From contig PHCB01000006.1 in NCBI GenBank assembly GCA_002842095.1, forward strand, positions 67,814-131,813: a stretch of 64,000 bases of DNA. The letters are read 5' to 3'. The first letter of the stretch is position 1. The number at the start of each line of letters is the position of its first letter. Under the pieces are notes generated by a model. That model saw only the letters and a list, made by a program, of their open reading frames with translations. It made no database searches and had not been told where the DNA came from. Of the stretch, positions 5,358 through 55,383 are shown one piece after another. Position numbers and translations under genes: made by a program. Origin of the DNA: a candidate division BRC1 bacterium HGW-BRC1-1 (lineage in GTDB: Bacteria > Sumerlaeota > Sumerlaeia > Sumerlaeales > Sumerlaeaceae).

Positions 5358-5507
5358 GCCGGTCTTCCTTCCTGCTCCATTCGATTACCATGGCGGGTTA
5401 TGAAAGTCGCCCGGCGGTAGTGCAACGCTTGTTTTCTTGCGCCGCTTCAAATGGGATGGCATGAGTGAAATTGACACGATAACAAAGCCCGCGAAAGGAG
5501 CAATGCC

Positions 5508-6002: not shown

Positions 6003-6323
6003 CGGCGACAAGTCGTTCGGAACGAACGGGTGTGGTTGTGAAGCGAGCGCAACAGTGAGAAGAAGCTGATCTGGGACCGGCGCCCCCGCCGGTCGCCGGG
6101 GAGGTGTGACTATCAGGATAGATTGTTTTTCTGAGTCCGCCGCTCCTCCGGAGCGGAATGTTGGGTTGGACTGTTCTTGGGGTTCCGGTCGCTGCGCTCC
6201 CTCTACCCCAAGCTACTCGCCGCGCCCCCTCCGGGGGCAAAACCAATTCATGCGATTTGCCCACGACACACAGGTACAGCTCTCGAAAAGAGCGAACCGA
6301 GGGAACCTTTTACCTCGCGCCGT
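6003..6323. other. Intergenic region between convergent yajQ and mraY
   Basis: No credible gene in 321 bases. A perfect 8-bp hairpin lies at 6075-6094 (GACCGGCG, loop CCCC, CGCCGGTC) and a second GC stem near 6228-6242. Neither has a T run, so these are not classical terminators, though they may separate the converging transcripts. Confidence 0.6.
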
Positions 6324-7490
6324 TTACCGAATCTTCAGCGAGGCCAGACCTATCAGGGCTAGCAGGGCCGTGACGATCCAAAAGCGGATGATGATCTTCG
6401 ACTCGGGGACACCCTTGCGTTCGTAGTGGTGGTGGATGGGTGTCATGAGAAACACGCGGCGTTTTCTCAGCTTCATCGATCCCACCTGAATCACCACGCT
6501 GACCGTCTCGATAACGAAAATGCCACCGACGATTCCCAGCAACAATTCCTGTTTGGTGATGAGTGCAACGGTTCCCAGAATCCCGCCCAGCGCCATGGAG
6601 CCGGTGTCGCCCATGAACATGTCTGCCGGGTGGGCATTGAACCAGAGAAACCCGAGGCTAGCCCCGGTGAGCGCACCGAGGAAGACGACCACTTCATCGG
6701 CCCGGCTGACATAGGGCAGCATCAGATAATTGGAGAGGATCTTGTTACTGGCCAGATACGCCACCACAATGAAAGTGAGCGTTACCAGAGTCGTGATGCC
6801 TATGCACAAACCATCGAGACCATCGGTCAGGTTCACCGCGTTGCTGGTCCCCACCAAAACCACCATGGTATACAATATGAAAAACGCGCCAATGGACAGA
6901 TAAGCCCATTTGAAAAATGGCACGAGAATGTGACCGTAGCCGGTGAAAGGCCCCTGAGATCCGCCCACGGCTTCGTAGTAAACGTAGGTTACGGGGGCCA
7001 CGCTGGTCATGCCAAACAAATAAAGGTAGGCGCCTACAAAAAGCCCGAGACCGACCTGACCAACAAATTTGTGGCGTGGTGACAGGCCATCGGAGTTGCG
7101 CTTGGTGATCTTGAGGTAATCGTCCAGAAAACCTAACATGCCGAACCCGACTGCCACCAGCACAAGAAGCCACACGAAGGGATTTAGGAGATTGCAGAAA
7201 AGCAGGACCGACCCCAGCAGCGTACCCAAGATGAGAATGCCTCCCATGGTAGGGACGCCCTTTTTTGCGGCGTGCATCTTGGAGAGATCGGGCGCGTCCT
7301 CACTGGTGGTGGTACGAAAGGGTTGCCCCGCTTTCAGTCGGTGCAGCGCTGCGATCAACATCGGTCCGAAATAAATGCTCGTCAGAAGGGAAAAAGCCAG
7401 AGCCACCGCTGTTCGCACGGTGATGTACTGCATGGGGTTGACGTACATGACCTGTTTGGACTGCAGGAAATTGAGAAAGTGATAAATCAT
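6324..7490 (-). CDS. mraY: Phospho-MurNAc-pentapeptide transferase (lipid I synthase)
   Basis: A 388-residue polytopic membrane enzyme that joins UDP-MurNAc-pentapeptide to undecaprenyl phosphate to give lipid I. Family motifs are all present: FLDDYLKITKRNSDGL with its catalytic aspartates, NLTDGLDGL, NAHPADMFMGDTGSMALGG and the histidine-rich TPIHHHYERKG near the C-terminus. About ten transmembrane segments. The start overlaps the murF stop by four bases, so it is translationally coupled as the last dcw gene visible here; murD and ftsW, usually next, are not in this window. Confidence 0.97.
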   Translation of the reverse strand: MIYHFLNFLQSKQVMYVNPMQYITVRTAVALAFSLLTSIYFGPMLIAALHRLKAGQPFRTTTSEDAPDLSKMHAAKKGVPTMGGILILGTLLGSVLLFCNLLNPFVWLLVLVAVGFGMLGFLDDYLKITKRNSDGLSPRHKFVGQVGLGLFVGAYLYLFGMTSVAPVTYVYYEAVGGSQGPFTGYGHILVPFFKWAYLSIGAFFILYTMVVLVGTSNAVNLTDGLDGLCIGITTLVTLTFIVVAYLASNKILSNYLMLPYVSRADEVVVFLGALTGASLGFLWFNAHPADMFMGDTGSMALGGILGTVALITKQELLLGIVGGIFVIETVSVVIQVGSMKLRKRRVFLMTPIHHHYERKGVPESKIIIRFWIVTALLALIGLASLKIR

Positions 7491-10465: not shown

Positions 10466-12943
10466 TCAATTGGTGGTGCGGGAACTGTCCGATACATCGT
10501 ACATGGAGGCTGGTGCAGCGTCACTTTTTTCAGTGGAGGTGCCGGCCGTTGATTCGCTTATGGGTGGGGCGGATTCCTCGGGCTTCGATGCAGCCTTTTT
10601 CTCCTCTGCAGCCGCCTTCTCGCGCTCTTTTTTCCACGTCGACCAGGCATCCTTGGCCACGGCCTTGTTCACTTTGCGCTCCACGGCGGGGTCGGTTTCG
10701 ATGGCTGCCGTTGCTTCCGTTTCAGGAGTCGGAAGGTTATTTGGACGCGGCAGCGGCGCGCGAATCAGCGAGGTCTGGTTCACGGTCAGCCGCACGGGCT
10801 GGGCCTCATCGCCATGCATCAGCATCAACTCTCCCTCGGTCTTGTCCGCAGCAAAGGCTACCGGCGCGGCATTGTGCAGACCAGCCTCCTTACGCGCCGC
10901 GTCCACGACCAATTTGCCCATGTATTCCTGTCGGGGAGCGAAGGTCAGTTGCACCTTCTCGCCCGGCTCCAGCGTCACGTAGGGGCGCGGTGTCTGATCC
11001 ACCACCACGCCGGTGCCTTCAAACTCGAACGGCAGGCGCAGATTAGCCAGATGCTCGCTGGCCTCCTTCATCGACATCCCGCCTAAGTTCGGCATTGTGT
11101 CGGAACTCACCTCGTCCTCGGGCCGGTTCTCCGTGAGATACTCCACGGGCACGCGCCCCTCAAGCTCGGTGCGCATGCGCTCACTGGTCAGGATCGCGAC
11201 CTTCAAAGACGGATCGGCCTCCTGTTCCATGGGAACCTTCAGCGTCTTCAGCGCAACTGAGGCCACTTCCCTGAACGTGGGGGCGGCCACCGTGCCACCG
11301 TAATAGCTGCTTCCGCGGGGGTTATCGATGTAGATATACACGACAATTTCCGGATCTTCCAACGGGGCCACACCACAGAAAGAGGCAACGTAGCTACGCC
11401 CGTATGTCCGCGTCTCCGGGTCAATCTTGCGGCTCGTGCCGGTCTTGCCACCCGCCCGATAATCGTCCAAAGCAGCCGTTTTTCCGGTGCCCTTTACAAC
11501 AACCTCTTCCATGAGGCGCAGCACCCGCTTGCTGGTGGTGGGACTGCAAACCCGCCGCAGAGCCTTGGGCTCGATGCGCTTCACCACGTCACCGCGAAAA
11601 TCGCGAATCTCGCGCACCACGTGGGGCTTCATGTAAATTCCGTTGTTCGCAATGGCCGCCACGGCCGCTGCCATCTGGATGCCCGTCACTCGGAGCTCAT
11701 AGCCCATGGGGATCGACGACATCGACATGGACGTCCAGTTGCGCACGTTGCGCAGCAAACCGGCGGATTCACCCGGGAGATCGATTTCGGTGGCTTGGCC
11801 CAGGCCAAAACGCACCAGGCGCTCATGAAAACGTGCAGGGGTCATGCGCATCCCCACCTTTACGGCCCCCACATTGCTCGACGTGGCAAAGGCCTCCATG
11901 GCGGAGACGATCCCCGTGCCCATGTGCGAGTCGCTGACCGTTCGACCGTGGACGTTCCACCGACCGCCCTCACAGTTTATCGAGTCGTTGAGGTTGAGCT
12001 TGTCCTCGTCGATGGCGGAGGCATAGGTCAGGATTTTCATGACAGAGCCGGGCTCGATGGAATCGGCCACGGCTCGATTGCGAAACTGTTCCGGGTTGGC
12101 ACGGCGATCGGTCAGGTTGAACGTGGGGCAGTTGGCCAGAGCCAGAACTTCGCCGGTCTTAACCGCTATCACCACAACCATGCCGGCCGTGGCATCATGT
12201 TCCTCCACGGCCTGCACAATGGCCGTCTGCGCGGCGCGCTGGATGCTGTCATCCAGCGTTAACACCACCGAGTTTCCATAGGTGGAGAACATCTGCGAGG
12301 CATCCGCCGGTTCCATCGCAACGGATACGGCATTCGTACGCACGCGCGCCTTCTCGCGCTTCCCGCGCAGTTCGTCGTTGTAAATGCTTTCCACACCGGC
12401 CAGGCCGGTGTTGTCGCCGGTTTCATCCAGTTGGGTAAACCCGATCACGTGGGAGGCGAGTTCGTCGCGCGAATACTCGCGCTTTCCCTCTTCGAGAAAA
12501 TAAATCGCGCCGTTGGCGACACGCTTGCGGAAGTCGAGACTCACGTCCTGAAGTGCCAGAACCGTATCGTTGCTCAGTTTACGAGCGAGGGGAGAGTTGC
12601 CCTTGCGAGTCATGCGGCCGTAAACTTCATCGAAGGGGATGTTCACCACGCGCGAAACCTCGTGGGCGAAGGAGACCTTGTGTTCGTCGGGAATTTTGAA
12701 CGGGTCGATGTAGGCGCTGTTCATCAACCGGCTGCCGGCCAGTTCGTGGAGGTTGCGGTCGAGGATCTTGCCCCGGCAGGGGACGATGGTGACGGTCTTG
12801 GTGTGCTGCCGGGCGGCGAGCTCGCGATAGTGATCGCGCCGCGCTATTTGAAGCACATAAAGGCGCGGAACAAGCGCACAAACGGCCAACAGCGGGATCA
12901 GCAGAAGGAGATGGATGCGGTGACGATAAGTTTTACGGAGCAT
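10466..12943 (-). CDS. ftsI: FtsI/SpoVD-like transpeptidase with PASTA domain
   Basis: A class B penicillin-binding protein of 825 residues for septal cross-linking. Order: short cytoplasmic tail, one transmembrane helix (HLLLLIPLLAVCALVP), dimerisation domain, then the transpeptidase domain with SVMK (active serine), SSN and KTGT motifs. One PASTA domain follows (MPNLGGMSMKEASEHL to VQLTFAP), then an Ala/Lys/Glu-rich tail of about 110 residues. PASTA on FtsI is typical of Gram-positives (SpoVD, PBP2x) and of scattered diderm phyla. I start at ATG 12943 just before the membrane anchor; the frame is open to 13006 but that part is uninformative. Confidence 0.95.
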   Translation of the reverse strand: MLRKTYRHRIHLLLLIPLLAVCALVPRLYVLQIARRDHYRELAARQHTKTVTIVPCRGKILDRNLHELAGSRLMNSAYIDPFKIPDEHKVSFAHEVSRVVNIPFDEVYGRMTRKGNSPLARKLSNDTVLALQDVSLDFRKRVANGAIYFLEEGKREYSRDELASHVIGFTQLDETGDNTGLAGVESIYNDELRGKREKARVRTNAVSVAMEPADASQMFSTYGNSVVLTLDDSIQRAAQTAIVQAVEEHDATAGMVVVIAVKTGEVLALANCPTFNLTDRRANPEQFRNRAVADSIEPGSVMKILTYASAIDEDKLNLNDSINCEGGRWNVHGRTVSDSHMGTGIVSAMEAFATSSNVGAVKVGMRMTPARFHERLVRFGLGQATEIDLPGESAGLLRNVRNWTSMSMSSIPMGYELRVTGIQMAAAVAAIANNGIYMKPHVVREIRDFRGDVVKRIEPKALRRVCSPTTSKRVLRLMEEVVVKGTGKTAALDDYRAGGKTGTSRKIDPETRTYGRSYVASFCGVAPLEDPEIVVYIYIDNPRGSSYYGGTVAAPTFREVASVALKTLKVPMEQEADPSLKVAILTSERMRTELEGRVPVEYLTENRPEDEVSSDTMPNLGGMSMKEASEHLANLRLPFEFEGTGVVVDQTPRPYVTLEPGEKVQLTFAPRQEYMGKLVVDAARKEAGLHNAAPVAFAADKTEGELMLMHGDEAQPVRLTVNQTSLIRAPLPRPNNLPTPETEATAAIETDPAVERKVNKAVAKDAWSTWKKEREKAAAEEKKAASKPEESAPPISESTAGTSTEKSDAAPASMYDVSDSSRTTN

Positions 12944-13538
12944 GGATACACCTGAATGCGCCCGATGCGAAGGGTGCGTCAAGCGGACAGGCGCGCCCTC
13001 AGTCATTTTTCCATTGACTAAGGCGCGCCCTACCTCTTGGTAATCGAGCCAGATAATAATACAGGCCAGACCGGCAACATACGGAAGCTAGGATGGGCAT
13101 CCTGAAAAATCCGCTAGTCATCGGGAACAGGAACTGGAGCTTAAAAGGGGCGAAGCGTCAACTTCGCCTCTTTTTTTATGTGCAGTAACTGGAAGGGTTC
13201 AGATTCGGCTGGGGCTTGGGGCAATCGCAATCCGCGGGAAAGGGGGCCGTCGGTGGGGCCTTCGGGGCCATCACCAGTCATTGGGAGCAGCAGCAGTCAA
13301 CTTGGGTGCGGGGACGCTTCCTCGGGAACAGTACCCCTTGCGGGGCGTCAGCGGGAACGGGAGCGGGACCACGGGTAACTAGAGCTTCAACGGGCGCTTT
13401 AACGGGACATCAGGGCAACGAGAACATCAGAAGGGAACGGGAGCCTGATTGCCGATCTGGCCTGAACTTGTCTGTCGATAAACTCTCCTTTTCGCCTCTC
13501 GCGAAATGATAAATTGTAGATCTTAATCTGGTGCTGTC
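12944..13538. other. 595-base spacer inside the dcw cluster
   Basis: No credible coding sequence. It holds a bidirectional terminator hairpin (13143-13177) and, from about 13200 to 13450, a G-rich low-complexity stretch made of variations on GGGAAC and AACGGGAGC. Such spacers between ftsL and ftsI are usually a few bases long, so this one is unusual. Confidence 0.6.
13143..13177. terminator. Bidirectional intrinsic terminator between ftsL-like gene and ftsI
   Basis: A 9-bp stem (GGGGCGAAG and CTTCGCCTC, one G-T pair) with a 6-base loop, an A run on the left and seven T on the right. It is strong on the plus strand; on the minus strand, the direction of the dcw genes, four T follow the stem. 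It could lower ftsI transcription relative to the genes upstream, or end an unannotated plus-strand RNA. Confidence 0.75.
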
Positions 13539-14024
13539 TCAGGGCTTGTCCGCCGCGAAGGCCGAACGCGTATCCATCAACGACATCAGGAAACTTTTTT
13601 CGGGCTTCTCCAGCTCGCCGGCCATGGCAACAGCCGAGCCCGCCGAAGAGGAACCCTTGAGATACTTGTCACGCAGATCCGCCGCCATCACCACCGTCGG
13701 CTGCACCCGCAGGTCGGCTTCCACCATTTCCATCTGGCGCTTGCCAAAATCGCGCAATGTCTGCGCGTCACAGATCGCTTCTTTCTGATGCTCGAGCTGA
13801 TCCACTTCCAACTGCAGGGAACGGACAGTCTCCTGCATCTTGCTCTGCTGCAGACGCGAATCGATGATCTGGAAGCGCAACCCCACGTGAGCCACGCCGA
13901 GCGCGCCCAGGAGCACGAAGGCGAACAACGACAAGGCTATGCGACGCTCGTTGAGCGAAGTTTGCCGTGGCGCAGTGGCCTTACATCGTGAAAAATTTGA
14001 CCGGGTATATCTTTTCGACGCCAT
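13539..14024 (-). CDS. ftsL: FtsL-like cell-division protein
   Basis: A 161-residue protein with the FtsL layout: a basic cytoplasmic N-terminus, one transmembrane helix (RRIALSLFAFVLLGALGVAHVG without breaks), then a periplasmic coiled coil (LQQSKMQETVRSLQLEVDQL). FtsL sequences are poorly conserved, so the call rests on topology and on position between rsmH and ftsI. The C-terminal 50 residues beyond the coiled coil are longer than in typical FtsL. It starts 8 bases after the rsmH stop. It would recruit and regulate FtsI/FtsW at the septum. Confidence 0.75.
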   Translation of the reverse strand: MASKRYTRSNFSRCKATAPRQTSLNERRIALSLFAFVLLGALGVAHVGLRFQIIDSRLQQSKMQETVRSLQLEVDQLEHQKEAICDAQTLRDFGKRQMEMVEADLRVQPTVVMAADLRDKYLKGSSSAGSAVAMAGELEKPEKSFLMSLMDTRSAFAADKP

Positions 14025-27595: not shown

Positions 27596-27626
27596 GAGCC
27601 AGCAAGATCATCTGCTGGCTCTTTTT
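27596..27626 (+). terminator. Intrinsic terminator after the SWIM-nuclease operon
   Basis: Perfect 9-bp stem GAGCCAGCA / TGCTGGCTC with an 8-base loop and five T. It separates this operon from the four-gene cluster that follows, which must have its own promoter. Confidence 0.92.
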
Positions 27627-27763: not shown

Positions 27764-28528
27764 ATGATTGAACCCACGCTTAAACGACTCGTCCCTACCG
27801 CCGACGAATTGCGTTGGCGCGCAAGCTACCTCCGTACGCTTGCGGCATTGACTCCGTTGCCCAGTGAGGATTCTCGGCCGTCTGGGCTTGCGTTGGGGAA
27901 CAGCAAGACCGGCTCAACTGGCACCAAATATCGTACCGTTTTCGTTTGGAACATTCCATCCGTGGCAACCTGTCCAGGCGCGACTGCCTGGTGTTTGGAT
28001 TGCTGTTACAATGCCGATCCTCGCGCTGAGAAGTTTCCGCTGCGAGAATGGCAGATCAACTGGTGGTGGGTGACTGTGCATCCAGAGGTTCTGTACGATC
28101 GCATATCGACGCAACTGCGCGAGGGGTCAACTCCTTGCGCGGTCCGTATCCACTCCTCCGGAGACTTCTACAATAACCGCTACATCCAGTTTTGGTATGA
28201 TCTCGCAACCGCTTTTCCTGCGGTATTGTTTTGGGGTTACACACGGTCATGGTCAGTCCGCGAACTCCTTCCTCAGTTGGTGGCGTTCCGCGATCTACGC
28301 AACGTCCAGCTGTTTGCATCATGGGATTCCTCGATGTCAGAACCGGACCCACGCTGGCGCCGTGCTATCGTCATGAAAGAGAGTTCCCCACGAGAATTGT
28401 TGTCATGTCATGATCCAAAGCGTAGTCAGGAGTTCTGTCCCGAGCAGTTCCTTCAGGCAGACAACTGCGCCTCCTGTGGGAATTGCATTGAACCCAAGAA
28501 CTATGATGTCCTTTTTGTCATACATTGA
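27764..28528 (+). CDS. GP88-like cysteine-rich protein, first gene of the four-gene cluster
   Basis: A 254-residue protein (from ATG 27764; the frame is open to 27644). It resembles the phage gene product 88 family: two cysteine groups, CPGATAWCLDCCY near residue 70 and CASCGNC near the C-terminus, and the conserved VRIHSSGDFYN, then FWGYTRSW. The cysteine sets could hold metal or an iron-sulfur centre; no biochemical role is known to me. It ends next to the kinase-methyltransferase gene. Its base composition is lower in GC than the genes to the left, suggesting a different origin. Confidence 0.65.
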   Translation: MIEPTLKRLVPTADELRWRASYLRTLAALTPLPSEDSRPSGLALGNSKTGSTGTKYRTVFVWNIPSVATCPGATAWCLDCCYNADPRAEKFPLREWQINWWWVTVHPEVLYDRISTQLREGSTPCAVRIHSSGDFYNNRYIQFWYDLATAFPAVLFWGYTRSWSVRELLPQLVAFRDLRNVQLFASWDSSMSEPDPRWRRAIVMKESSPRELLSCHDPKRSQEFCPEQFLQADNCASCGNCIEPKNYDVLFVIH

Positions 28529-28542
28529 GAGGCTGTTGTGCC

Positions 28543-29856
28543 GTGACGTTACCACTTCCTAAGGTTCTTCAAGCGAATTCCCAGCCTGTTCTCGTTTTGG
28601 TTGGGGGGCCAAGCGGGTCTGGCAAGACTTCCATTATCAACAGCCTGCTCAGCCGCTATCCCGGAGTATACGAGCGACCACTGTCATACACAACGCGACC
28701 TCCAAGACCGGGCGACACATCAGGCGAATTCCACCACACCACAGAATCCCATATTCTTGAACTGCTTGGTGCCAATGAAATTCCGACTATTGACCGAGTT
28801 TACGGCAATGCTTACGCAATGAGTTCCAGGTCCATCGACATTATCATCGAGTCGCACCGGATTCCAATCAAGGAAGTTCACCCCAGCAATCATGCCAAGC
28901 TTCGTCGGACTTTCCCCAGTCTGCTATCCGTGCACATAACATGGATCCCCGGCGACCGTGAGTCCACCGTAGAACGCTCAGATCGCGCGGCTGCGGACGG
29001 CTCGTATTACGCATCCTTCAGCTTGGCCGAGACCGACATCGTTATCTGGAATGACCATAAGGATTCGATAGACGCCTTGGCTGATCGGCTTCATCATTCG
29101 CTCACGTCCACTCTTTGTGAAGCGGACCGGTTCGCACTTCCAAGCGAAATAGACAGACTCAATACGGCTGGTTACACCGGGATTGCGGCGGAATTCTCCG
29201 AGGCCAAACGGATAACCACTAGGAACTTCCATGAGATGTCGACGCCCTTCTTTGAGAAATCCTTGCAGAACAGAATCGCCGACGGCGCATGTTGCGCGGA
29301 GATCGGCCCAGGCAGGGGTTGGCTTCGCAACTCCTTCACTTGGCCGCATGTGCACTACACCGCTATCGATGTTTCTGAAAGCATGCTCAAGGCTCAGCCC
29401 GCAGATTCGACTATACTGGCCTCAGCACGTGCCATTCCCGTTCGCAACGCCTCGTTCGATGCAGTATTCGGATCACTAATCGACCCATACTGCTATCCAG
29501 CGGCACTTTGCGAAATTCGACGTGTCCTCAAGACGGGTGGCCTTTTTATTCTGAGTTCGCCGGCTGCTGAATGGGCCTATGGGCTGCGTGACGGCGACGG
29601 TCTTGACAAGACGCGGTTTGTTCACGACGACGGTACTATTGCCGAGGTGTTCTCATATGTCTTTACTCTCGAGGAACTATCTCTGTTGCTGGAGCGCTGT
29701 GGATTTTCAGTTCTAGCATCTGACCGTCTTCTTGGAAATGCCCTTATGCTTGGAAGAGAGATATCTCCTGCAATTACGGACTCGGCCAGCCGTCTAGGCG
29801 TTGCAGTAAGCGACTTGCCAATCGTGAACCTTGCAGTGGTCCAGCGAATGGAGTAA
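28543..29856 (+). CDS. Guanylate-kinase-like / SAM methyltransferase fusion
   Basis: A 437-residue two-domain protein. Residues about 15-195 resemble guanylate kinase: P-loop GGPSGSGKTS (21-30), SYTTRPPRPGD (the GMP-binding region of GMP kinase), then an altered lid. Residues about 240-437 are a class I methyltransferase: CCAEIGPGRGWLR (motif I, about 249), YTAIDVSESM, IRRVLKTGGLFIL. I prefer the GTG at 28543 with GAGAGG before it; a TTG at 28525 is possible. A fusion of these domains suggests phosphorylation and methylation of the same nucleotide. Overlaps nothing, but is tightly packed in the cluster. Confidence 0.75.
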   Translation: MTLPLPKVLQANSQPVLVLVGGPSGSGKTSIINSLLSRYPGVYERPLSYTTRPPRPGDTSGEFHHTTESHILELLGANEIPTIDRVYGNAYAMSSRSIDIIIESHRIPIKEVHPSNHAKLRRTFPSLLSVHITWIPGDRESTVERSDRAAADGSYYASFSLAETDIVIWNDHKDSIDALADRLHHSLTSTLCEADRFALPSEIDRLNTAGYTGIAAEFSEAKRITTRNFHEMSTPFFEKSLQNRIADGACCAEIGPGRGWLRNSFTWPHVHYTAIDVSESMLKAQPADSTILASARAIPVRNASFDAVFGSLIDPYCYPAALCEIRRVLKTGGLFILSSPAAEWAYGLRDGDGLDKTRFVHDDGTIAEVFSYVFTLEELSLLLERCGFSVLASDRLLGNALMLGREISPAITDSASRLGVAVSDLPIVNLAVVQRME

Positions 29857-29866
29857 ACTGACGGTA

Positions 29867-30679
29867 ATGATGACGAGATCCGTACAACAGAATCTGCTGT
29901 TCGGTGCATCGGACACCGCTCTCCGCAGTGAGAGTGCGATCCGCGAGTCTATTGCACGCCTACTCGCGATCTACAGTCGGGGCTTACTGGGAGGATCTGT
30001 AATGCCAGAGGATTCTAATCCGGGTCTGCCTGTAAGCGAAATTGACAACTATCATTATTTCACGCTGCCGATGGCCCTGAACTATCAACGTAATTCGTAT
30101 ACTCTCTGGAGGGCGGCAAGAACCACGTACTTCGACCCGACAACTTCAGATGTTTTCAGGCCAAAGGCTGTCTGCAAGATGGATGAATCCGACTTGGCGG
30201 CTATGTTGATGAAGCACAGTGTAGCGCTTCAGCCGAGAAAGCATACGGCAACATGGCGAAGGCTCTGCGAGACAATTCAGGAGCTGTATGAGGGCGACAT
30301 CCGCACCCTTTTCACTCAGACAAGTGGTTCTGTCCCCGCAATTCTTGAAATCATCCAGGGCACTCAGAAAAAGCAATTTCCATATTTGAGCGGACCTAAG
30401 ATAGCCAACTATTGGCTTCACGTTATGGAGAGCTACACTGACGTTCACCTAACGGACCGGGGCGGATTGACCGTTGCGCCCGACACTCATGTTATTCAAG
30501 CATCCGTCCGTCTTGGACTTGTTCAAGGAGGCCAAAGAGACGACACCGAGCTTCGGAACGAAGTCGCCGAGGCTTGGAGGAACGTTCTGGCCCCAACCGG
30601 CATTCTCCCAATTGACGTTCATACGCCATTGTGGTTGTGGAGCCGTTCCGGTTTTCAGTTTAGTGCGGAAATCCTGTGA
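29867..30679 (+). CDS. HhH-GPD (DNA-glycosylase-like) protein
   Basis: A 270-residue mostly helical protein. Residues about 170-215 show YLSGPKIANYWL and, 18 residues on, VAPDTHVIQASVRLGL. These parallel the LPGVGRKTA and VDTHV-RLG patterns of HhH-GPD glycosylases, with the Lys and Asp in catalytic positions. No C-terminal iron-sulfur cysteines. It could remove or bind a modified base, or be a non-catalytic fold relative such as those seen in phage base-hypermodification gene sets. The start is ATG 29867 (ATG 29870 also possible), 10 bases after the previous stop. Confidence 0.55.
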   Translation: MMTRSVQQNLLFGASDTALRSESAIRESIARLLAIYSRGLLGGSVMPEDSNPGLPVSEIDNYHYFTLPMALNYQRNSYTLWRAARTTYFDPTTSDVFRPKAVCKMDESDLAAMLMKHSVALQPRKHTATWRRLCETIQELYEGDIRTLFTQTSGSVPAILEIIQGTQKKQFPYLSGPKIANYWLHVMESYTDVHLTDRGGLTVAPDTHVIQASVRLGLVQGGQRDDTELRNEVAEAWRNVLAPTGILPIDVHTPLWLWSRSGFQFSAEIL

Positions 30680-30715
30680 TCTGTATTTGACCGGTTGACC
30701 TGGGGAGTGATGTTG

Positions 30716-31801
30716 ATGCCGACGTTTAGGCTTGGGTGCAATTTTGATCCGGCTCTCATTGAAGGAGTGGCGGGGCTGAATGCTCGATTTTCTAGTCGGC
30801 CGCTAACTGAGTTCTATGGGTCTATCCGTTCTCACGCGGAGTGGACAGCTAGGCCGGCGTTTCGGCTCCCGGACATATCGGAGTTGACTTTGCGTCGGTA
30901 CGTTCAGGCATGCCGTCGGGAAAACATCGATTTTAACTACACTCTTAACACGGTTCATCCGGGGAGCAAGCGAGCACTGTGGGCCAAGCGTAAAGAGCTC
31001 GCGGCCCTAGTACAGCGTCTTGAGGATTTTGGAATTCGGAACGTAACGATTACTCATCCGCTTGTGGGCGAGATCGTGCGCGAAGCATCTCGGTCGTTGG
31101 ATATTGAAATCAGCACCATTGCACATGTAGACACCGTTAGTCAGATACTCGCATGGAAGCAGGCTGTAGGTGCGACCGGTATATGCGGCTCCTTGTCTAA
31201 GAACCGTTCAATGCTCTTCTTGAGTAGAGCGGCAAGAGTCTGCGCGGAACATGGTATTCGTCTGAACCTGATGGTGAATGAATTCTGCAGTAGTGGCGGG
31301 ATGGTCCAGGGACGAGGGTTTGGAACCAATTGCATTTATCGTGCGAGCTGCTATCTGTGCCATGCGGAGGATGTAACGCGTGAGGATGCCCAGCTCTTTG
31401 AGAAATTTCCCATGGGTCGGTGTATTTCGGGACGTGACGGCACTGCGGCATGGTTGAAAACGCGATTCATTCGACCAGAGGACATCGGAAAGTATGAAGA
31501 CATTGGTATCAGTCACTTCAAAATTACTGGACGTACTGGGTCGACGCTCTATTTATTGTCCACAGCTACGGCTTATATGCAAGGAAGTTTCGGTGGGAAT
31601 CTTCTTGAACTATGGAAACCACTCGAGACGATTGTCGGCGAGGTACAGCAAGATACTTCAGCTGGTGGTTTGCGAATCAACAACCGAATGCTTGATGGAT
31701 TCATAGATCACTGGGTGCAAAACCCTCAGCATGAGTGCGCAAACGAACTGTGTGGTGATACCTGTTCATATTGCGATGAATTCGCGAGCGGCATTTCCTA
31801 G
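30716..31801 (+). CDS. Peptidase-U32-like protein with cysteine cluster
   Basis: A 361-residue protein with a TIM-barrel-like pattern. The motif LMVNEFCSSGG, then GTNCIYRASCYLCH, and a later CGDTCSYCD, resemble the cysteine set of U32 family proteins (TrhP, RlhA, UbiU/UbiV), which hold a 4Fe-4S cluster and take part in oxygen-independent or prephenate-dependent hydroxylation. It is far from the known members, so the substrate is open. Start ATG 30716, chosen for the GGGAG ribosome site 9 bases ahead. It ends the four-gene cluster. Confidence 0.65.
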   Translation: MPTFRLGCNFDPALIEGVAGLNARFSSRPLTEFYGSIRSHAEWTARPAFRLPDISELTLRRYVQACRRENIDFNYTLNTVHPGSKRALWAKRKELAALVQRLEDFGIRNVTITHPLVGEIVREASRSLDIEISTIAHVDTVSQILAWKQAVGATGICGSLSKNRSMLFLSRAARVCAEHGIRLNLMVNEFCSSGGMVQGRGFGTNCIYRASCYLCHAEDVTREDAQLFEKFPMGRCISGRDGTAAWLKTRFIRPEDIGKYEDIGISHFKITGRTGSTLYLLSTATAYMQGSFGGNLLELWKPLETIVGEVQQDTSAGGLRINNRMLDGFIDHWVQNPQHECANELCGDTCSYCDEFASGIS

Positions 31802-45461: not shown

Positions 45462-48400
45462 ATGATCGATTCTCGAACACGCAGATTTCGCAATGCAGTT
45501 TCGGCTGAATTTATGCAAACGGCCCACGACATAGACCTTCTTTACACCGACCCTTTGCCGTCGACACGGACTGGGGCGCTTTACAACGCCTTCTCCTACC
45601 CAACGAAAATCTCACCCGAAGCGATAGCTGTCTTCATCGCAACACACACCGAACCGGGTGCGCTTGTCCTCGATACCTTCGGCGGCAGTGGTACGACTGG
45701 ACTGGCCGCAATGTTATGCGACAAGCCGACCGAGTACATGCGGAACCTTGTCAGCCAAATCGGCGTCACACCAAAGTGGGGGCCGAGGCGAGCCGCCGTG
45801 TACGAAATTGGAGTCCTCGGGTCTTTTGTTTCGAGAACAATGTGTTCACAAATCGACCCCGATGCCTTTGAGAAGGCGGCTAAACGGCTCATTGACGACG
45901 CGGAACAGGCCTCGACTGGACTCTATGAAGCCATCGACTCACACGGTCAATTAGGCTCGATTCGTCATACAATATTGTCGGACATCTTGGTATGCCCTGC
46001 ATGCGATAAACAGGCTTCATATTGGGAGGTCGCAGTCAGGTTCAAACCACTACAGCTTGAAACCAAGTTTCGCTGTCCCCATTGCCATCATAAGGCTGAC
46101 CTGGATTCAGTTGAGAGAGCCGTTGAGACGGTCCTTGACCCACTAATCAAGAAACGCATCACGCGCAAGAAGCGTGTCCTGGCCCGTGTACATGGCGAGA
46201 CCAATGGAAAGAAATGGCAGCGAGAGGCAACTGAAGATGATGTCCGTCGATTCGAAACAATCCGGAGACGTTCTATTCCGAAGATCGCTCCAATCGTTCC
46301 TGTTGATTGGGGAGACCTTTATCGATCAGGTTACCACAAAGGCATCAGCCACATCCATCATTTCTATACACACCGTAACTTTCTAGCGCTCGCGACGCTG
46401 TGGGAGAAAGTCGACGGTGCTCCCGAAGAGCTACGTGATGCCTTGAGGCTCCTCATTCTCAGCTACAACGGAACGCATTCCACATTGATGACGCGAGTTG
46501 TGGTGAAGCAAGGTCAGAACGACTTTGTTTTGACGGGTGCCCAGAGCGGAGTACTCTACATCAGCAGTTTGCCTGTCGAAAAGAATATCTTCACGGGAAT
46601 TCGTCGCAAGATCCGAACATTCTGTGAAGCCTTTGCCCTCGTGCATGGCAGTACAAGCACCGTCGATGTGGTCAACGGGAGCAGTGTTAATATTAATCTT
46701 CCCGACAGAAGTGTCGACTATGTGTTCACAGACCCTCCGTTCGGCGATTTTATACCGTACGCCGAGGTGAACGAGATCAATGAGGTATGGCTTGGACCGA
46801 TTACGCAACGCCGGTCGGAGATTGTCATAAGCCAGGCGCAAGGCAAGACCGTTGAGGCGTACGGTCGTCTAATGGGGGACGTTTTCTCGGAGATCGCTCG
46901 AACGCTGAAAGATGACGGACGAGCCACGGTCGTGTTTCACTCCGCAAAGGCCGAAGTGTGGCAGTCCCTTTGCAAGGCTTACCTTGATGCTGGCCTAGCC
47001 GTTAAGGCGACCAGTGTACTTGATAAGCTCCAAGCCACCTTCAAGCAAGTGGTCTCGACCGTAACGGTAAAAGGCGACCCGCTTCTTCTGTTGCAGAAGG
47101 CCCCAGTAGCGAAGCCGAATGGCGACAATGCCGCGGCCCGCGAACGAATACTGGCCGAGTTGCTCAAAGAGACCAGCACTCATGCGGAAGGATCGAAAGA
47201 GCGAACGCCGGAGCGGCTCTATTCGCGGTTTGTCGCGCGGTGTCTTGAGGCCGGAATCCCTGTAGGGATTGACGCAGCTGAATTTTACGAGAGGGTTCGC
47301 GACTCGCTGAAAGCGATGACCTCGGGACCGTCGTCAAACGGGAATGCCAAGGACTTCTGCGATTCACTGGATCCAGTTCGCAAGAAACGTCTGGGGCAGT
47401 ATTTTACCGAGCCCAAATTGTCTCGATTTCTGGCAAATGTTGCTGGCGCGGCAAAAGCCCACACAGTGATTGATCCGTTTGCCGGCCTTGGGGACATGAT
47501 CATCGCCAGTAATGGTGCCAATCCATCCCAACAGCTCTCGGCCATCGAAATTGATCAGGCTGTTTGCGATTTCGGGCAGAAGCGCTGCTCGACTGAGTGC
47601 AAAGGTGATGTAGCCTTCATTCTTGGCAGCGCGTTCGATTGGTCCGTATTGGCAGGATTGCCAACGAAGAGTTTTGATCTCGTCATCACCAACCCTCCGT
47701 ATGTTCGATACCAAAGTTTCGCGAAGAAAGGCGTGGATGAGTGTTCAACGCCTGATGCAGCCGGCGTTCGAAATGCTCTGCGTACATTGATTGACAAGTC
47801 ATCCACTCTTGATGCGGCAGATCGCAACTTGCTGACGACCTTAGTACAAGGATACTCCGGTCTGGCCGATTTGGCGGTTCCGGCTTGGTTGCTCTGTGCC
47901 ATGCTGACCCGAATCGGAGGCACGTTGGCCATGGTTGTCCCGGAAGCATGGCTAACTCGTGATTATGCGCAGGCGATCCAATACTTGCTCTTGCGATGGT
48001 TCCGCATTCGCCATGTAATCGAAGATGCCAATGCTGCGTGGTTTCCGGAAGCACAGGTGAAGACGACGCTGATTATTGCCGAGCGTATTCAACGCCGCGG
48101 CTCGATCTTCGACTGGAAAGACGAGGGATATCTGCGGACGCAAATCTCGGGTTCCGCCTCCGACGACCGGAGTATTGTCGGAAATATCGAAAAGGGTGCA
48201 CCAAATCCTGACGGGCAGTTCGCGCACCACTTGGAGGCACTGCTCAGACTCAGGCGCGGCGAAGAGCGGCCGTTGTGGAGCACTCGCTGGGTTTCGATGC
48301 TGGAAAAGGCTGAAAATCTTCGAAGTGCAGCTGCAGGCGAAACCTGGTTTCGGGCGCTGGAGGGCGCCAGCGACGCGACGGACCGCACGAACCACAATTC

Positions 48401-49436
48401 CAATGGCTCCGCAGTTATACCTACAGAACTACGATCATGGCTGGGTACGACCTCCAAGGCGACGTTCACCAGTTTGGAGCACATTGGAGTGCAAGTTGGG
48501 CAGGGGCTTCGTACCGGGGCGAATACATTCTTTTACGTCGATGTGGAGTCCGTAAGCGACCATGACCTCCTGATTCGAGCACATCGTTCTTTGAAAGTAG
48601 AAAAGGTACGCGTGCCCTCTGAGTGCGTGGAAACGGTTTTGCGCAAGCAGGCGGAGATTGGTCCAGGCTATCGACTCGATGCAACCGCGTTGACCGGCCG
48701 TGTTCTGGTATTTCAGAATTTTGCCTTGTCGGAGGATATGAAAGCAGTCGCCAAGGTCAGCAGGGTGGTAGCGAATGCTATTCGGGCGGCTTATATCCCT
48801 ATGCCGGCTGATTTGGTGAAGTTGGTCAATGCCGCGGCGATCCGAGCAGAGCATAACGGCAGCGAAGAACGCTATATCCCAGAGTTTTCCGCTGTCAGAA
48901 CCAATGTTCGCAAAGTTGACCCGGCTCGTCCGGATGTGCTTCCGCGCTGGTGGTACATGTTGCCGCCGTTTGCACCGCGCCATCGGCCCGAGCTTGTGAT
49001 AGGACGCGTTAATGGTGCGCCGCCTAGAGCGGTCCTCAATGACGAGCCGAAGGTCGTTGTTGATGCGAACTTTTCCACGATGTGGTTGCGGCCTGATGCC
49101 AGTGTTGACGTTTACGCGCTGCTTGCAGTGCTGAACAGTACCTGGGCCGTTACGGCTATGGAATGCATGGGTTCTGTAATGGGCGGGGGTGCCTTGAAAT
49201 TGGAGGCCACACACCTTCGAAAATTGCCGATCCCAGTTTTCGAAAAATCGGAGCGGCGGCGACTCTCCAGCCTGGGAAAGGCTTTGGTGCGTGCGTCCGA
49301 TCCAGCAGCGACACTTTCCGTAATCGACGAGGTAATCATGAAGGCCTTGTTCGGAGAAGTTGCGGTGACCGGGCAATTGGCTACGCTTACAAGAATTAGG
49401 GACAACCATATTAACGCGAGAGCGCGAACAACATAA
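45462..49436 (+). CDS. Giant protein with two DNA methyltransferase domains
   Basis: 1324 residues. First methyltransferase: motif I LDTFGGSGTTGLAA (about 68-80) and motif IV FTDPPFGDF (about 423), with a zinc ribbon inserted between them (CPACDK ... CPHCHH, about 175-205). Second methyltransferase: KRLGQYFTEPK (about 645), VIDPFAGLGDM (about 671), VITNPPYVRYQ (about 743), then a target-recognition-like part ending LRKLPIPVF. The first is like N4/N6 class beta enzymes, the second like type IIG/PglX N6-adenine enzymes. No nuclease domain is clear. One base separates it from the next gene, so they form one system. Confidence 0.8.
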   Translation: MIDSRTRRFRNAVSAEFMQTAHDIDLLYTDPLPSTRTGALYNAFSYPTKISPEAIAVFIATHTEPGALVLDTFGGSGTTGLAAMLCDKPTEYMRNLVSQIGVTPKWGPRRAAVYEIGVLGSFVSRTMCSQIDPDAFEKAAKRLIDDAEQASTGLYEAIDSHGQLGSIRHTILSDILVCPACDKQASYWEVAVRFKPLQLETKFRCPHCHHKADLDSVERAVETVLDPLIKKRITRKKRVLARVHGETNGKKWQREATEDDVRRFETIRRRSIPKIAPIVPVDWGDLYRSGYHKGISHIHHFYTHRNFLALATLWEKVDGAPEELRDALRLLILSYNGTHSTLMTRVVVKQGQNDFVLTGAQSGVLYISSLPVEKNIFTGIRRKIRTFCEAFALVHGSTSTVDVVNGSSVNINLPDRSVDYVFTDPPFGDFIPYAEVNEINEVWLGPITQRRSEIVISQAQGKTVEAYGRLMGDVFSEIARTLKDDGRATVVFHSAKAEVWQSLCKAYLDAGLAVKATSVLDKLQATFKQVVSTVTVKGDPLLLLQKAPVAKPNGDNAAARERILAELLKETSTHAEGSKERTPERLYSRFVARCLEAGIPVGIDAAEFYERVRDSLKAMTSGPSSNGNAKDFCDSLDPVRKKRLGQYFTEPKLSRFLANVAGAAKAHTVIDPFAGLGDMIIASNGANPSQQLSAIEIDQAVCDFGQKRCSTECKGDVAFILGSAFDWSVLAGLPTKSFDLVITNPPYVRYQSFAKKGVDECSTPDAAGVRNALRTLIDKSSTLDAADRNLLTTLVQGYSGLADLAVPAWLLCAMLTRIGGTLAMVVPEAWLTRDYAQAIQYLLLRWFRIRHVIEDANAAWFPEAQVKTTLIIAERIQRRGSIFDWKDEGYLRTQISGSASDDRSIVGNIEKGAPNPDGQFAHHLEALLRLRRGEERPLWSTRWVSMLEKAENLRSAAAGETWFRALEGASDATDRTNHNSNGSAVIPTELRSWLGTTSKATFTSLEHIGVQVGQGLRTGANTFFYVDVESVSDHDLLIRAHRSLKVEKVRVPSECVETVLRKQAEIGPGYRLDATALTGRVLVFQNFALSEDMKAVAKVSRVVANAIRAAYIPMPADLVKLVNAAAIRAEHNGSEERYIPEFSAVRTNVRKVDPARPDVLPRWWYMLPPFAPRHRPELVIGRVNGAPPRAVLNDEPKVVVDANFSTMWLRPDASVDVYALLAVLNSTWAVTAMECMGSVMGGGALKLEATHLRKLPIPVFEKSERRRLSSLGKALVRASDPAATLSVIDEVIMKALFGEVAVTGQLATLTRIRDNHINARARTT

Positions 49437-49437
49437 C

Positions 49438-52400
49438 ATGACAGACGACCACGTTATCACAGACGCGCAGATTCAAGCTGCGAAAGAATGCATCGCTGTA
49501 GCGAAGGGTTTGATTGCTACGGGACAGAACGAACAGCGCATTCGAGACAGCTTTACTTCCCGACTGCGCGGGCTATTTGCGCGCAAGCCAACTTGGATCG
49601 AAGAGCATGTGTTGGGCGGGGAGGCGGCCCTCAAAACCCACAAGAAGAGCAAGGTGACGACGGGGTTTGTGGATAATCTCGTTGGTCTTACCGCCATTGA
49701 GTACGAAGGCAATCTGAAGAACGTCGCGAAATTTGAGGAGGGCTACGGACAGGTCGAGAAGTATTGTGCGTCGCTACTTAACGATGGAAACGATCCAACG
49801 CAAGTCATCGGGGTGCTTTCGGATACCTTGCGCTGGCACGCTTATTCCGTGAAGGAAGTGCGAAATTCCGAAGGTGGTCCGATTGAGGCAGAACACGTTG
49901 TGTTGGGGGAGATCGAACGCATCGACGTGAGTGGGGGAAGTGACAACGATGCCAAGCGCCTGATTACCTTCTTGAAGAAGTATCTTCAGCGATTGGGATC
50001 ACGGCCGCTGAGAGCAGAAGCCATTGCTCGTGATCTCGGATTCTACAGCTCGTTTTGCAAACGTCATATTGGCGGTTTTACTGCGGTGGTGGACCAAGCC
50101 TTCAAAGATAACCCTGGATATGCAAGGTTGATCGCAGAATTGTGGTGTAACTTCGTTAGTTATGTAAGTGCCAAGGGACAATCGAGTGCTTTCGATAGGA
50201 CGGAGTACTCGAACGAACTGTATATTCTGACGCTGGCCAAACTCATCTGCGCCAACGCCCTTGCGGATCGCGCGTTGCAGAGTCCCGATGACGAGGTGAT
50301 CGCAATTCTCAATGGGGAGTTCTTTAGTGGAAGAGGTTTGGTCAATTTTGTGGAATATGATTATTTTGGCTGGATCAACAGCTCGGCCCCTTACTTAAAG
50401 GGTCTGATTCCGATTGCGCGGGGACTCCAGGACGACTTGCGCGCTTATGACTTTACGAAGGCACCGAGTGAGGATATTTTTGGTCACCTGATGGCGCAGC
50501 TTGCGAGCCGATCACAGCGCCTGCTACTCGGGCAAGAGTGGACTCCAGCGTGGCTGGCGCGAGCCATCGTGGCAAAGACTATCGCGGATTTACCAGCCGG
50601 CACGCCTCCGCGCTTCGTTGATATGTGCTGCGGTTCTGGCTCCATGATCGTTGAGACTGTTCTTCAGGCCAAGAAGAGGATTGATGCGCAGGGTGGTGGG
50701 GGGAAGAAGGGAGATAAGCGAATTGCTCTTCTGGCTGCGGCGATTACCGGGTTCGATATTGACCCCTTGGCGGTCATGCTGTCGAAGGTTGGCTGGGTTC
50801 TCGCAGCCCGTGATTGGCTAGGGGCGCCCGGCACGTACCAAGTCTCCATTCCCATCTACCATGCGGACTCGCTGTTCGCGATGACCCCGCTCTCAAAATC
50901 AATCCAGCAAGAATCGGATGAATTGACGCTGCAGATTGCTGAGCACCAAGTTGCGCTCCCAAGATTCCTGGTGTCGTATCCGTGGCAAGCGGCGTTCGAC
51001 TATGCGCTTGATCGTGCATATGCCCTGGCTACCGGCGTGAAGAACCTCAGGCTCAGTGACAAAGACGCTGCTGATATTGCCAATGAAGCAATGAATGACG
51101 CTCCTCCGAAAGCCACGAAAGATGACGAGAAGGTTCTCGCGCGGTTCATCAAAGTGCTAACAGAGAGGATTCATCAGCTTCATCGAGAAGGGCGTAACGG
51201 AATTTGGATCTTCATCTTACGCAACAGCTATCGACCGGGATTGGTCTCTGGTCAGTTCAACGGATTAGTCTCTAACCCGCCATGGCTAGCTCTCAGCAAG
51301 ATTGCGGATAATCCGTACAAGGAAGCACTGGAAGAACTCGGTGGTGCCCTGAACGTGAAACCAGAGGGACCATCCTTTCTCCATCTTGAAATGGCGACGA
51401 TTTTTCTACTTCACGCGGTGGACCGCTATCTTCAGTCCGGAGCAGTGATCGGTTGCGTTGTCCCAGAGACCGTACTCAATGGGCATCAACACAATCCGTT
51501 CCGGGAGAATGGCTATACTAAAGGGGAACGACGAGTTGAGTTTGCGGTTAGCAATATCTGGAAAGTTCATGAGTCGGCGTTCAAGAACCGCGCAGCTGTC
51601 CTCTTTGGACGCAAGCTCAATCCTGCAAAATTGAGGCCAAACCCGATTCCAGGTGGCACGATATTGCCGGACGGAACAGTTGTATCCGGCAAATTCAAGC
51701 GAGTGACAATGGGTCCCCGCACTGTTTGGACGGACACCGATGGAAAAGCATCGGCTGCCGATTTCCATCCGGCTGATTTTGAACAAGGGGCCGACATCAT
51801 GCCACGGCGTCTGTTCTTCCACGAGGTTTCGCCTGTTGGGAACTCAGGCCTGTCGAAATTGGTCCCGATAGATGTGGACTCGCCCGTCTATTTCCTTGTC
51901 AACGATGCCAAGCAGTGCAAGGACTTCGCCCTGGTCTCCCCTTGTGTTGTCCAAGACGAGTTTCTTTTTGATATACTAATCTCCAAATTGATGAGCCCGT
52001 TCATTATGGCTTCACCGGTCAAGGCATTCTTGCCGATCCGACATGGGACCTCCGGGAATTGGGAACGGTGGACAGACCAAGAGCTTCTGGTAAAGGCGAA
52101 GTATCGCGCTGTTCAGAAGGCGTTTGAAAGTATCGCAGGTGAAGTCGCAAAGATGAAGGCGGGCGCGGCAAAGGCCGATCACGCGGAGCGGATATGGGAG
52201 CGAATCAACTTCCGAAACAAGGTTGGGAAACAGGTGATTCCTTCCAACGGTTATCTTGTATTTACCGGTGCGGGTGGAAGCGACATTTGTTCTGCTTTCA
52301 TTGATCTTGGTCGTATCCCTGCGGAAAAACTGATTGTTGATCAAACCTTGTATTGGGCACATGTGGAGAGCCGGGGAGCTGCGCTGTATTTGACTGGGTT

Positions 52401-52737
52401 GTTTAATAGTGAAGCGGCTAATCAACTGATTAAGGCTTTTCAGCCTCGGGGGCAGCAAGGAGAGCGCCATATTCATGAACTCGCTTTCGGCATTACCCCA
52501 CCATTCGATCCTAGTCGGCCAGAGCATGTGGAAGTAGTGAAAGCAACGGCCCGACTAATGAGTGAATACGACAAAGCCAGGCAATTTGCGATGAAGAAGG
52601 GGGATGACGGCGTGCTGCAGTGGCTCGATCCAGGCAAAGACTTGGCGAAACGCAGGAGTCGGCTTCGAGGTATCATCAGGGAACTCCCTGGCTATCGTGA
52701 CTACGAGAATGCGTGCCGGGCCGTGTACGGTGTGTAG
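49438..52737 (+). CDS. N6-adenine methyltransferase with nuclease-like N-terminus
   Basis: 1099 residues. The N-part (about 1-150) has VDNLVGLTAIEYEGNLK, which could be a PD-(D/E)XK-like core (D, then ExE), then GYGQVEKYCASLL as in type IIG R-M enzymes. Methyltransferase motif I FVDMCCGSGSM (about 393) and motif IV VSNPPWLAL (about 614). The C-part (about 750-1000) holds a recognition-like segment. It may be the restriction partner of the 1324-residue protein; alternatively both act together in a BREX-like way. Its spacing to the prior gene (1 base) shows coupling. The nuclease call is weak. Confidence 0.7.
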   Translation: MTDDHVITDAQIQAAKECIAVAKGLIATGQNEQRIRDSFTSRLRGLFARKPTWIEEHVLGGEAALKTHKKSKVTTGFVDNLVGLTAIEYEGNLKNVAKFEEGYGQVEKYCASLLNDGNDPTQVIGVLSDTLRWHAYSVKEVRNSEGGPIEAEHVVLGEIERIDVSGGSDNDAKRLITFLKKYLQRLGSRPLRAEAIARDLGFYSSFCKRHIGGFTAVVDQAFKDNPGYARLIAELWCNFVSYVSAKGQSSAFDRTEYSNELYILTLAKLICANALADRALQSPDDEVIAILNGEFFSGRGLVNFVEYDYFGWINSSAPYLKGLIPIARGLQDDLRAYDFTKAPSEDIFGHLMAQLASRSQRLLLGQEWTPAWLARAIVAKTIADLPAGTPPRFVDMCCGSGSMIVETVLQAKKRIDAQGGGGKKGDKRIALLAAAITGFDIDPLAVMLSKVGWVLAARDWLGAPGTYQVSIPIYHADSLFAMTPLSKSIQQESDELTLQIAEHQVALPRFLVSYPWQAAFDYALDRAYALATGVKNLRLSDKDAADIANEAMNDAPPKATKDDEKVLARFIKVLTERIHQLHREGRNGIWIFILRNSYRPGLVSGQFNGLVSNPPWLALSKIADNPYKEALEELGGALNVKPEGPSFLHLEMATIFLLHAVDRYLQSGAVIGCVVPETVLNGHQHNPFRENGYTKGERRVEFAVSNIWKVHESAFKNRAAVLFGRKLNPAKLRPNPIPGGTILPDGTVVSGKFKRVTMGPRTVWTDTDGKASAADFHPADFEQGADIMPRRLFFHEVSPVGNSGLSKLVPIDVDSPVYFLVNDAKQCKDFALVSPCVVQDEFLFDILISKLMSPFIMASPVKAFLPIRHGTSGNWERWTDQELLVKAKYRAVQKAFESIAGEVAKMKAGAAKADHAERIWERINFRNKVGKQVIPSNGYLVFTGAGGSDICSAFIDLGRIPAEKLIVDQTLYWAHVESRGAALYLTGLFNSEAANQLIKAFQPRGQQGERHIHELAFGITPPFDPSRPEHVEVVKATARLMSEYDKARQFAMKKGDDGVLQWLDPGKDLAKRRSRLRGIIRELPGYRDYENACRAVYGV

Positions 52738-52780
52738 GCCCCGTGTTGGCCGCGCGCGATTGATGATTGATTGGGCATAG

Positions 52781-53233
52781 ATGAAGATTGTTAGTGGCGG
52801 CCAGACCGGCGTGGACCGGGCAGCGCTTGATTTGGCGCTCGAACTTGGTATTCCCTGCGGCGGTTGGTGCCCGAATGGGCGGCTCGCTGAGGATGGCCCA
52901 ATTCCCGACAGTTATCCGCTCACCGAGACGACCTATTCGGATTACCGGGTCCGCACCCGAAAGAACATCGAGGAAAGCGACGCCACGCTCGTGCTGACGG
53001 TGGGGCGGCCGACCGGCGGAACGGCGCTCACGGTCCGCCTGGCGCAGGAACTGCGGAAACCGTGCCTCGTTGTCGATCTGGACCAGGCGGCAGATATTGC
53101 GCGGGTGGTTGCATGGATTGAGAAAAATCGTGTGACCATCCTGAATGTGGCCGGGCCGCGCGAAAGTAAGTCGTCGGGCGTGCATGGGCTCGCGCTGAAT
53201 TTTTTGCGGGGGGTCTTCACATGGACGAGTTGA
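52781..53233 (+). CDS. SLOG-family (YpsA-like, MoCo-carrier) protein
   Basis: A 150-residue Rossmann-like protein: SGGQTGVDRAALDLAL (nucleotide loop), CGGWCPNGRLAEDG, NIEESDATLVLT and GRPTGGTALTV. These match the circularly permuted YpsA-like SLOG family, annotated as molybdenum cofactor carrier-like. SLOG domains are predicted to sense or make nucleotide signals in defence. It overlaps the next gene by 13 bases, strong evidence for a two-gene unit. Ribosome site is weak. Confidence 0.8.
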   Translation: MKIVSGGQTGVDRAALDLALELGIPCGGWCPNGRLAEDGPIPDSYPLTETTYSDYRVRTRKNIEESDATLVLTVGRPTGGTALTVRLAQELRKPCLVVDLDQAADIARVVAWIEKNRVTILNVAGPRESKSSGVHGLALNFLRGVFTWTS

Positions 53234-54760: not shown

Positions 54761-54786
54761 TGGTTTCGCTACCCTTAGCCTCGCTT

Positions 54787-54809
54787 GGTAAAAAGGCAAC
54801 GCAACAGTG
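54787..54809 (+). other. attR: element right arm plus crossover TG
   Basis: Arm at 54787-54807 (AAAAAGGCAACGCAAC core) ending AG-TG-CCCC. It mirrors the left arm. The restored attB is CCCA-TG-CCCC inside comM; the restored attP has the two arms in inverted orientation around TG. Confidence 0.85.
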
Positions 54810-55287: not shown

Positions 55288-55325
55288 AATTACCCGAAAT
55301 CATAGAGCGTGTATTTAAAAAACAA

Positions 55326-55358
55326 GTCGACAGAGGCACCTGACAGTTTTTGTCGACA
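55326..55358. repeat. Two GTCGACA repeats upstream of the STAND gene
   Basis: GTCGACA occurs at 55326-55332 and 55352-55358, 26 bases apart; the second is part of TTGTCGACAA. Within the 96-base gap before ATG 55384. Candidate operator. Confidence 0.4.
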
Positions 55359-55383
55359 ACTCGATAAAAAAAGCAGTGTACAC

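Follow-up and report, generated by a model that had tools for sequence, protein, structure and literature searches.

What does a bacterial mobile element gain from carrying, as one packed group of genes, a phage-type GP88 protein, a guanylate-kinase-like domain fused to a methyltransferase, a glycosylase-like protein and a U32 oxidase? The question is raised by the four genes (P1-P4) at positions 27764-31801 of a 64,000-nucleotide stretch of the candidate division BRC1 bacterium HGW-BRC1-1 (contig PHCB01000006.1; hereafter the window), which are intact, all encoded on the + strand and separated by intergenic gaps of ~10-36 bases. An earlier reading of the letters alone (the original prediction) had described these four packed genes, two of them encoding cysteine-rich proteins, as a module that moved together; the open frames, gene order and families are confirmed here, P1 and P4 being the proteins rich in cysteine, and the evidence is stronger than was claimed. 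No named system combining the four is found in Pfam, PHROGs, NCBIfam or PADLOC, and to our knowledge none has been described. The account that we favour, tentatively, is that of a mobile four-enzyme cassette that would make and process a modified nucleotide.

Four genes conserved as one unit across phyla

An alignment of P4 was scanned against one genome per species (84,980 species) by means of short peptide patterns, so that further loci will have escaped. The scan returned two loci, L008 and L009, each in a metagenome-assembled genome (MAG) of the Bacillota (Table 1). Failure of the four genes to recur together elsewhere would have refuted the original prediction; all four do recur together in both MAGs, with order and strand identical to those in the window. 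The identities between window and MAG proteins are 38-39% for P1, 38-40% for P2, 45-47% for P3 and 39-42% for P4, whereas L008 and L009 share 50-62% per protein; the divergence is thus about equal for the four proteins, which implies that they have long had a common history. The flanking genes are unlike one another at the three loci, which places the boundaries of the cassette at GP88 and P4. The four genes are one unit conserved across phyla, and chance is no credible account of their co-occurrence.

Within the window the cassette starts after a strong terminator, as had been noted, and its composition differs from that of its neighbours: the GC content at third codon positions (GC3) is 0.51-0.58 in the cassette genes, whereas the element genes on either side have 0.74-0.83, and the cassette is therefore foreign to the element backbone. 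Translation of P1 possibly starts earlier, at GTG 27644, and that of P4 possibly at ATG 30710.

The cassette is rare, and a sample of ~430 further genomes from the host groups contained none: P3 is absent from the 39 other genomes of the phylum of the window and, in the order to which L008 and L009 belong, from the 393 other genomes that were sampled (two order samples, largely overlapping). Viruses scanned with the P2 and P3 alignments gave no cassette, plasmids gave no P4 and only two lone haloarchaeal relatives of P3, and the cassette was not found in E. coli. An empty site was sought in relatives, and the element backbone gene occurs in no other genome of the phylum of the window.

Table 1. 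Positions of the cassette genes, the upstream terminator and the two further cassettes
Feature	Sequence	Positions	Strand	Basis or remarks
Intrinsic terminator	Window	27596..27621	+	Belongs to upstream Cas4-like gene; 9-pair stem and T run; left boundary of cassette
P1, GP88 family (PF17338, phrog_1392)	Window	27764..28528	+	Pfam 85.8 bits; predicted iron-sulfur (Fe-S) protein
P2, guanylate-kinase-like and class I methyltransferase fusion	Window	28543..29856	+	GTG start; Pfam; fused homologues in L008 and L009; alignment with guanylate kinase (GMK)
P3, helix-hairpin-helix (HhH) N-glycosylase-like (AGOG/Qng1 group)	Window	29867..30679	+	Lys178 and Asp206 kept; AGOG profile; Foldseek to Qng1, low-confidence model
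P4, U32 oxidase, phage phrog_5757 subfamily	Window	30716..31801	+	Pfam; phrog_5757; ten invariant Cys
Cassette	L008	7191-11077		Clostridia MAG (Bacillota)
Cassette	L009	7136-11101		Eubacteriaceae MAG (Bacillota)

P4 belongs to a U32 subfamily of phage hypermodification clusters

P4 matches Peptidase_U32 in Pfam (E=5e-8, 33.1 bits against a cut-off of 22.4) and phrog_5757 over residues 8-363 (E=4.8e-108), is 46-49% identical to phage proteins and falls inside the phage tree, in which a single origin apart from the phages is not resolved for the cassette U32 copies. The characterised U32 enzymes carry [4Fe-4S] clusters and hydroxylate, in a prephenate-dependent manner, the C5 of pyrimidines in RNA or quinone rings (PMC6599085, PMC6747719, PMC11574389). 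TrhP, RlhA and UbiUV share with P4 the U32 domain, conserved cysteines and a presumed prephenate-dependent hydroxylation, whereas the cysteine spacing of P4 differs (C-x14-C-x5-C among ten invariant cysteines), Glu162 of TrhP has no conserved counterpart, and a C-terminal Cx4Cx3Cx2C is additional.

The relatives of P4 in sequenced phages, 218 in number (Mosigvirus, Thanatos, Providencia, Proteus, Serratia and similar), sit in arabinosyl-hydroxycytosine clusters; in RB69-type phages (PMC13390438) and in Thanatos (PMC12838424) a pentose is joined via oxygen to C5 of cytosine. With its nearest relatives in phage DNA-hypermodification clusters, P4 lends weight to the phage style of base modification that had been proposed. 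P-loop nucleotide kinases, identified partly by eye from the P-loop and for the remainder by phmmer, occur near the phage U32 gene in ~11 of 15 distinct lineages, and thymidylate synthase (TS) homologues, glycosyltransferases, nucleotidyltransferases and glycosylases of the uracil-DNA glycosylase (UDG) type recur around it. In four lineages the gene stands beside 3-deoxy-D-arabino-heptulosonate 7-phosphate (DAHP) synthase (three lineages) or chorismate mutase (T4-like phages). Chorismate mutase makes prephenate, and DAHP synthase, as the first enzyme of the shikimate pathway, opens the route to it; such neighbours suggest a prephenate-fed hydroxylation step in the phages. In Thanatos-2 the U32 gene is followed directly by that of a small chorismate mutase (TH2_068/TH2_069, L002:8001-9391; PF01817 E=8e-8) within the cytosine-modification cluster, and in other viral lineages (L010:7779-10130, L136, L137, L138, L139) it lies beside or near DAHP synthase and a nucleotide kinase. 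A U32 protein of this subfamily is repeatedly paired with a nucleoside monophosphate (NMP) kinase, and often with a glycosylase too, in phages whose kinases and glycosylases come from unrelated families; this recurrence speaks for a common logic more than for accident.

The glycosylated 5-hydroxycytosine clusters of RB69-like Mosigvirus, Shewanella Thanatos and Providencia/Proteus phages thus resemble the cassette in the U32 subfamily (46-48% identity), in the paired nucleotide kinase and, often, in a nearby glycosylase. In contrast to them, the cassette lacks sugar genes, a TS homologue, a shikimate enzyme and, in each of its three copies, a glycosyltransferase; the kinase comes from a different family and is fused to a methyltransferase, GP88 and P3 are added, and the carriers are bacterial mobile elements. 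In the pathway proposed here, P4 would act as an Fe-S U32 oxidase that hydroxylates a pyrimidine nucleotide at C5, with prephenate as the oxygen source.

P2 keeps the phosphate-binding residues of guanylate kinases and has lost those for guanine

P2 matches Guanylate_kin (E=1.5e-13) and Methyltransf_11 (E=3e-10) in Pfam, with the kinase-like domain at ~ residues 15-185 and the methyltransferase domain at ~250-400, and the same fusion is present in the L008 and L009 homologues. Like guanylate kinase it keeps the P-loop (GGxSGxGKT), TTRxxR and the equivalent of Tyr78, which in guanylate kinases bind ATP and the substrate phosphate. Unlike guanylate kinase it has a shortened lid and a fused methyltransferase, and in all three copies two acidic guanine-recognition positions have changed, the equivalent of Glu69 to Thr or Asn and the EIDxQG Asp to His. 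Because the two acidic positions are lost, the base is probably not guanine, and guanine was rejected as the kinase substrate. Together with the pyrimidine (or quinone) hydroxylation by characterised U32 enzymes and the place of the P4 subfamily in cytosine-modification clusters, this loss leaves the modified guanine of the original prediction unsupported. Conservation in P2 also covers the linker KRITTRNFHEL and, in the methyltransferase, the motif SLxDPYxYP; P2 has no match to 5-HMUDK/AADT-type families in Pfam or PHROG.

Among solved structures, those nearest to the methyltransferase domain belong to generic class I enzymes, one of them being RlmA(I), as a weak match. This match, and the synthesis of 5-methoxyuridine (mo5U) by TrhP and a methyltransferase in B. 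subtilis, would agree with a wobble-type modification of tRNA or rRNA by a U32 enzyme and a methyltransferase, borne on a mobile element to evade ribonuclease-based defences. Such a scheme leaves the kinase domain and the glycosylase unaccounted for, however, and P4 groups with the phage DNA-modification U32 proteins and not with the TrhP or RlhA models, so that we consider it very improbable. In the nucleotide pathway, the kinase domain of P2 would instead phosphorylate the modified nucleoside monophosphate, and the methyltransferase domain may cap the new hydroxyl or another group.

P3 as a probable HhH glycosylase and the level at which the cassette may act

Profile searches of each protein, as proposed in the original prediction, gave above-threshold family matches for P1, P2 and P4, but for P3 only a sub-threshold one, to AGOG (best in Pfam, E=0.006, under the gathering score). 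The HhH-GPD catalytic positions K178 (LSGxKI) and D206 (VAPDTHV) are invariant in five sequences, Asp206 aligns with D172 of AGOG, and a profile to which two haloarchaeal relatives of P3 were added finds Pyrobaculum AGOG (E=4e-4). The position of AGOG D218, a base-pocket residue, is Asp in the haloarchaeal relatives and His in all cassette copies, and 8-oxoguanine was rejected as the substrate on account of this replacement. With the AlphaFold2 (AF2) model of P3, which is weak (predicted local distance difference test, pLDDT, 54.7), the eleven best Foldseek matches in the PDB are all queuosine-5'-monophosphate N-glycosylase (Qng1, DUF2419; E from 5.6e-3, probability ~1, template modelling (TM) score ~0.39), with endonuclease III (EndoIII) and archaeal Ogg ranking below. 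The catalytic Lys and Asp of Qng1 and AGOG are kept in P3, and the HhH fold is probably shared as well, whereas P3 lies under both Pfam cut-offs and has no Pfam match to PF10343 of Qng1. Most likely P3 belongs to the AGOG/Qng1 group of HhH N-glycosylases, with a changed base specificity, and may act on nucleotides or on DNA. It would cut the base from the modified monophosphate (cf. Qng1) or from DNA (cf. EndoIII, AGOG) as an editing or executing step.

The two haloarchaeal relatives of P3, on plasmids (L006:7782-8612, L007:7635-8477), are AGOG-like, keep the base-pocket Asp and stand alone, the other three genes being absent. One AGOG/Q_salvage-like protein from a genome of the same class as the window aligns with P3 (E=5e-4, low probability). 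The AGOG/Q_salvage-like protein at L110:1300-2310, from a genome of that class, has a Cys-rich C-terminus, and the Q_salvage (Qng1-like) proteins at L109:1360-2433 and L111:484-1542, in a small phylum, have a C-terminal four-cysteine extension.

The nature of P3 bears on whether the cassette acts on nucleotides or on polymers. HhH proteins act mostly on DNA, the best match to the P3 sequence is AGOG, and the U32 enzymes characterised as pyrimidine hydroxylases, TrhP and RlhA, work on RNA polymers; it is conceivable from these facts that the base is hydroxylated by P4 and modified by P2 when it already forms part of DNA or RNA, with P3 being an HhH-fold transferase or eraser and not a nucleotide hydrolase. 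The HhH-fold AADT enzymes known from phages with hypermodified thymidine would offer a parallel in style. An AADT-type transferase was nevertheless rejected for P3, which has no such match among Pfam or PHROG families or viral predicted structures; moreover, the guanylate-kinase-like fold acts on monophosphates, and RB69-type phages form their 5-hydroxycytosine at the level of the mononucleotide (PMC13390438). We hold action on the polymer to be unlikely.

The joint occurrence of enzymes that fit the NMP level and the Qng1-like fold of P3 (in a low-confidence model) would also suit a small-molecule pathway leading to a free modified base, nucleoside or nucleotide (an antibiotic or signal), in which P3 frees the base from an NMP like the cytidine monophosphate (CMP) glycosidases of nucleoside-antibiotic synthesis. 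As the surroundings of the three copies have no transporter, resistance or tailoring gene in common, and as the genes are only four and lie repeatedly on mobile elements beside defence-type cargo, we regard such a product as improbable.

P1 is a GP88 protein with conserved cysteines

P1 matches GP88 (PF17338, E=5e-24, 85.8 bits against a cut-off of 24.4) and shares with the phage proteins of this family their cysteine motifs, its seven cysteines lying in two groups and each being invariant or >=90% conserved among 30 sequences; RxHxSGDF and GYTRSW are further motifs of the family. The AF2 model is confident (pLDDT 90.6), and a Foldseek search of the PDB with it gave no convincing match. A radical-SAM identity, suggested by the layout of strand, Cys-loop and SGDF, was rejected in view of this search and of a motif that reads CX6CX3C and not CX3CX2C. 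GP88 is common in phages (at least 221 viral loci, including Streptomyces, Mycobacterium and Sphingomonas phages), where, in contrast to the cassette, P2-P4 are not beside it in the viral neighbourhoods read. In the nucleotide pathway P1 would be the putative enzyme of a further Fe-S-dependent step.

Surroundings of the cassette and a possible role in defence

The cassette copies are surrounded by defence or mobile-element cargo. The island in the window is defence-rich, as originally described: at 45462-61392 it holds genes for a PglX-like methyltransferase, a type IIG restriction-modification (RM) enzyme and a 2027-aa Avs/SAVED-like protein, all with a GC3 (0.55-0.58) similar to that of the cassette genes. 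In both MAGs the cassette has a C5-cytosine DNA methylase in its vicinity, together with further genes of element type. In L009, conflict-type neighbours (5258-6656 and 11629-13602) comprise a Pepco-domain protein (PF24393), HExxH proteins and an ADP-ribosyltransferase-looking protein; in L008, a SpoVAD gene with only a partial match to its profile (11742-12491) ends close to the cassette, and the element has possibly integrated into spoVAD there. PADLOC gave weak generic P-loop/methyltransferase matches for P2 and none for P1, P3 and P4.

The cargo position, the rarity and the defence neighbours are compatible with defence or with protection of the element, and from its location a defence role of the cassette stays in view. 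The mobile element may thus use the product against phages, as a nucleotide or a mark, or to protect its own nucleic acid. A more specific scheme, which we think rather unlikely, is a mobile immune system that would make its own modified pyrimidine nucleotide (of 5-hydroxy or 5-methoxy type, with oxygen from prephenate), activate it by the kinase-methyltransferase and execute or edit with the matching glycosylase, a chemical defence drawn from phage hypermodification chemistry.

Discussion

Each part of the cassette falls in or near a known family, and the whole points to a pathway of nucleotide or nucleic-acid modification, with a minority chance of a new type of chemical defence. Several observations weigh against the nucleotide pathway favoured here. 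The cassettes found are three in total, and GP88 has no assigned function, in phages as well. The model of P3 is of low confidence, and hhalign of P3 with Q_salvage is not significant (probability <1%, shallow alignments). P4 does not have the common U32 cluster motif CX6CX15CX3/4C (PMC6747719), from which UbiV and UbiU likewise deviate. In RB69-type phages it is a TS homologue, and not the U32 protein, that has been published as the 5-hydroxy-dCMP synthase (PMC13390438), so that the role of U32 there is a putative one; since the cassette, and the genomes of both MAGs throughout, have no TS homologue, P4 would act without a TS partner.

For the phages, the authors of the Thanatos study had no valid hypothesis for how the hydroxyl reaches the modified cytosine (PMC12838424). 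As the U32 gene lies in the same Thanatos cluster directly before chorismate mutase, and in other phages beside DAHP synthase, it is a direct candidate for supplying the oxygen, although the literature may already account in part for what U32 does in phages. For bacteria, the nucleotide pathway, if true, would represent the use of a phage-type U32 oxidase by mobile elements and an enzyme set that implies a nucleotide product not yet known.

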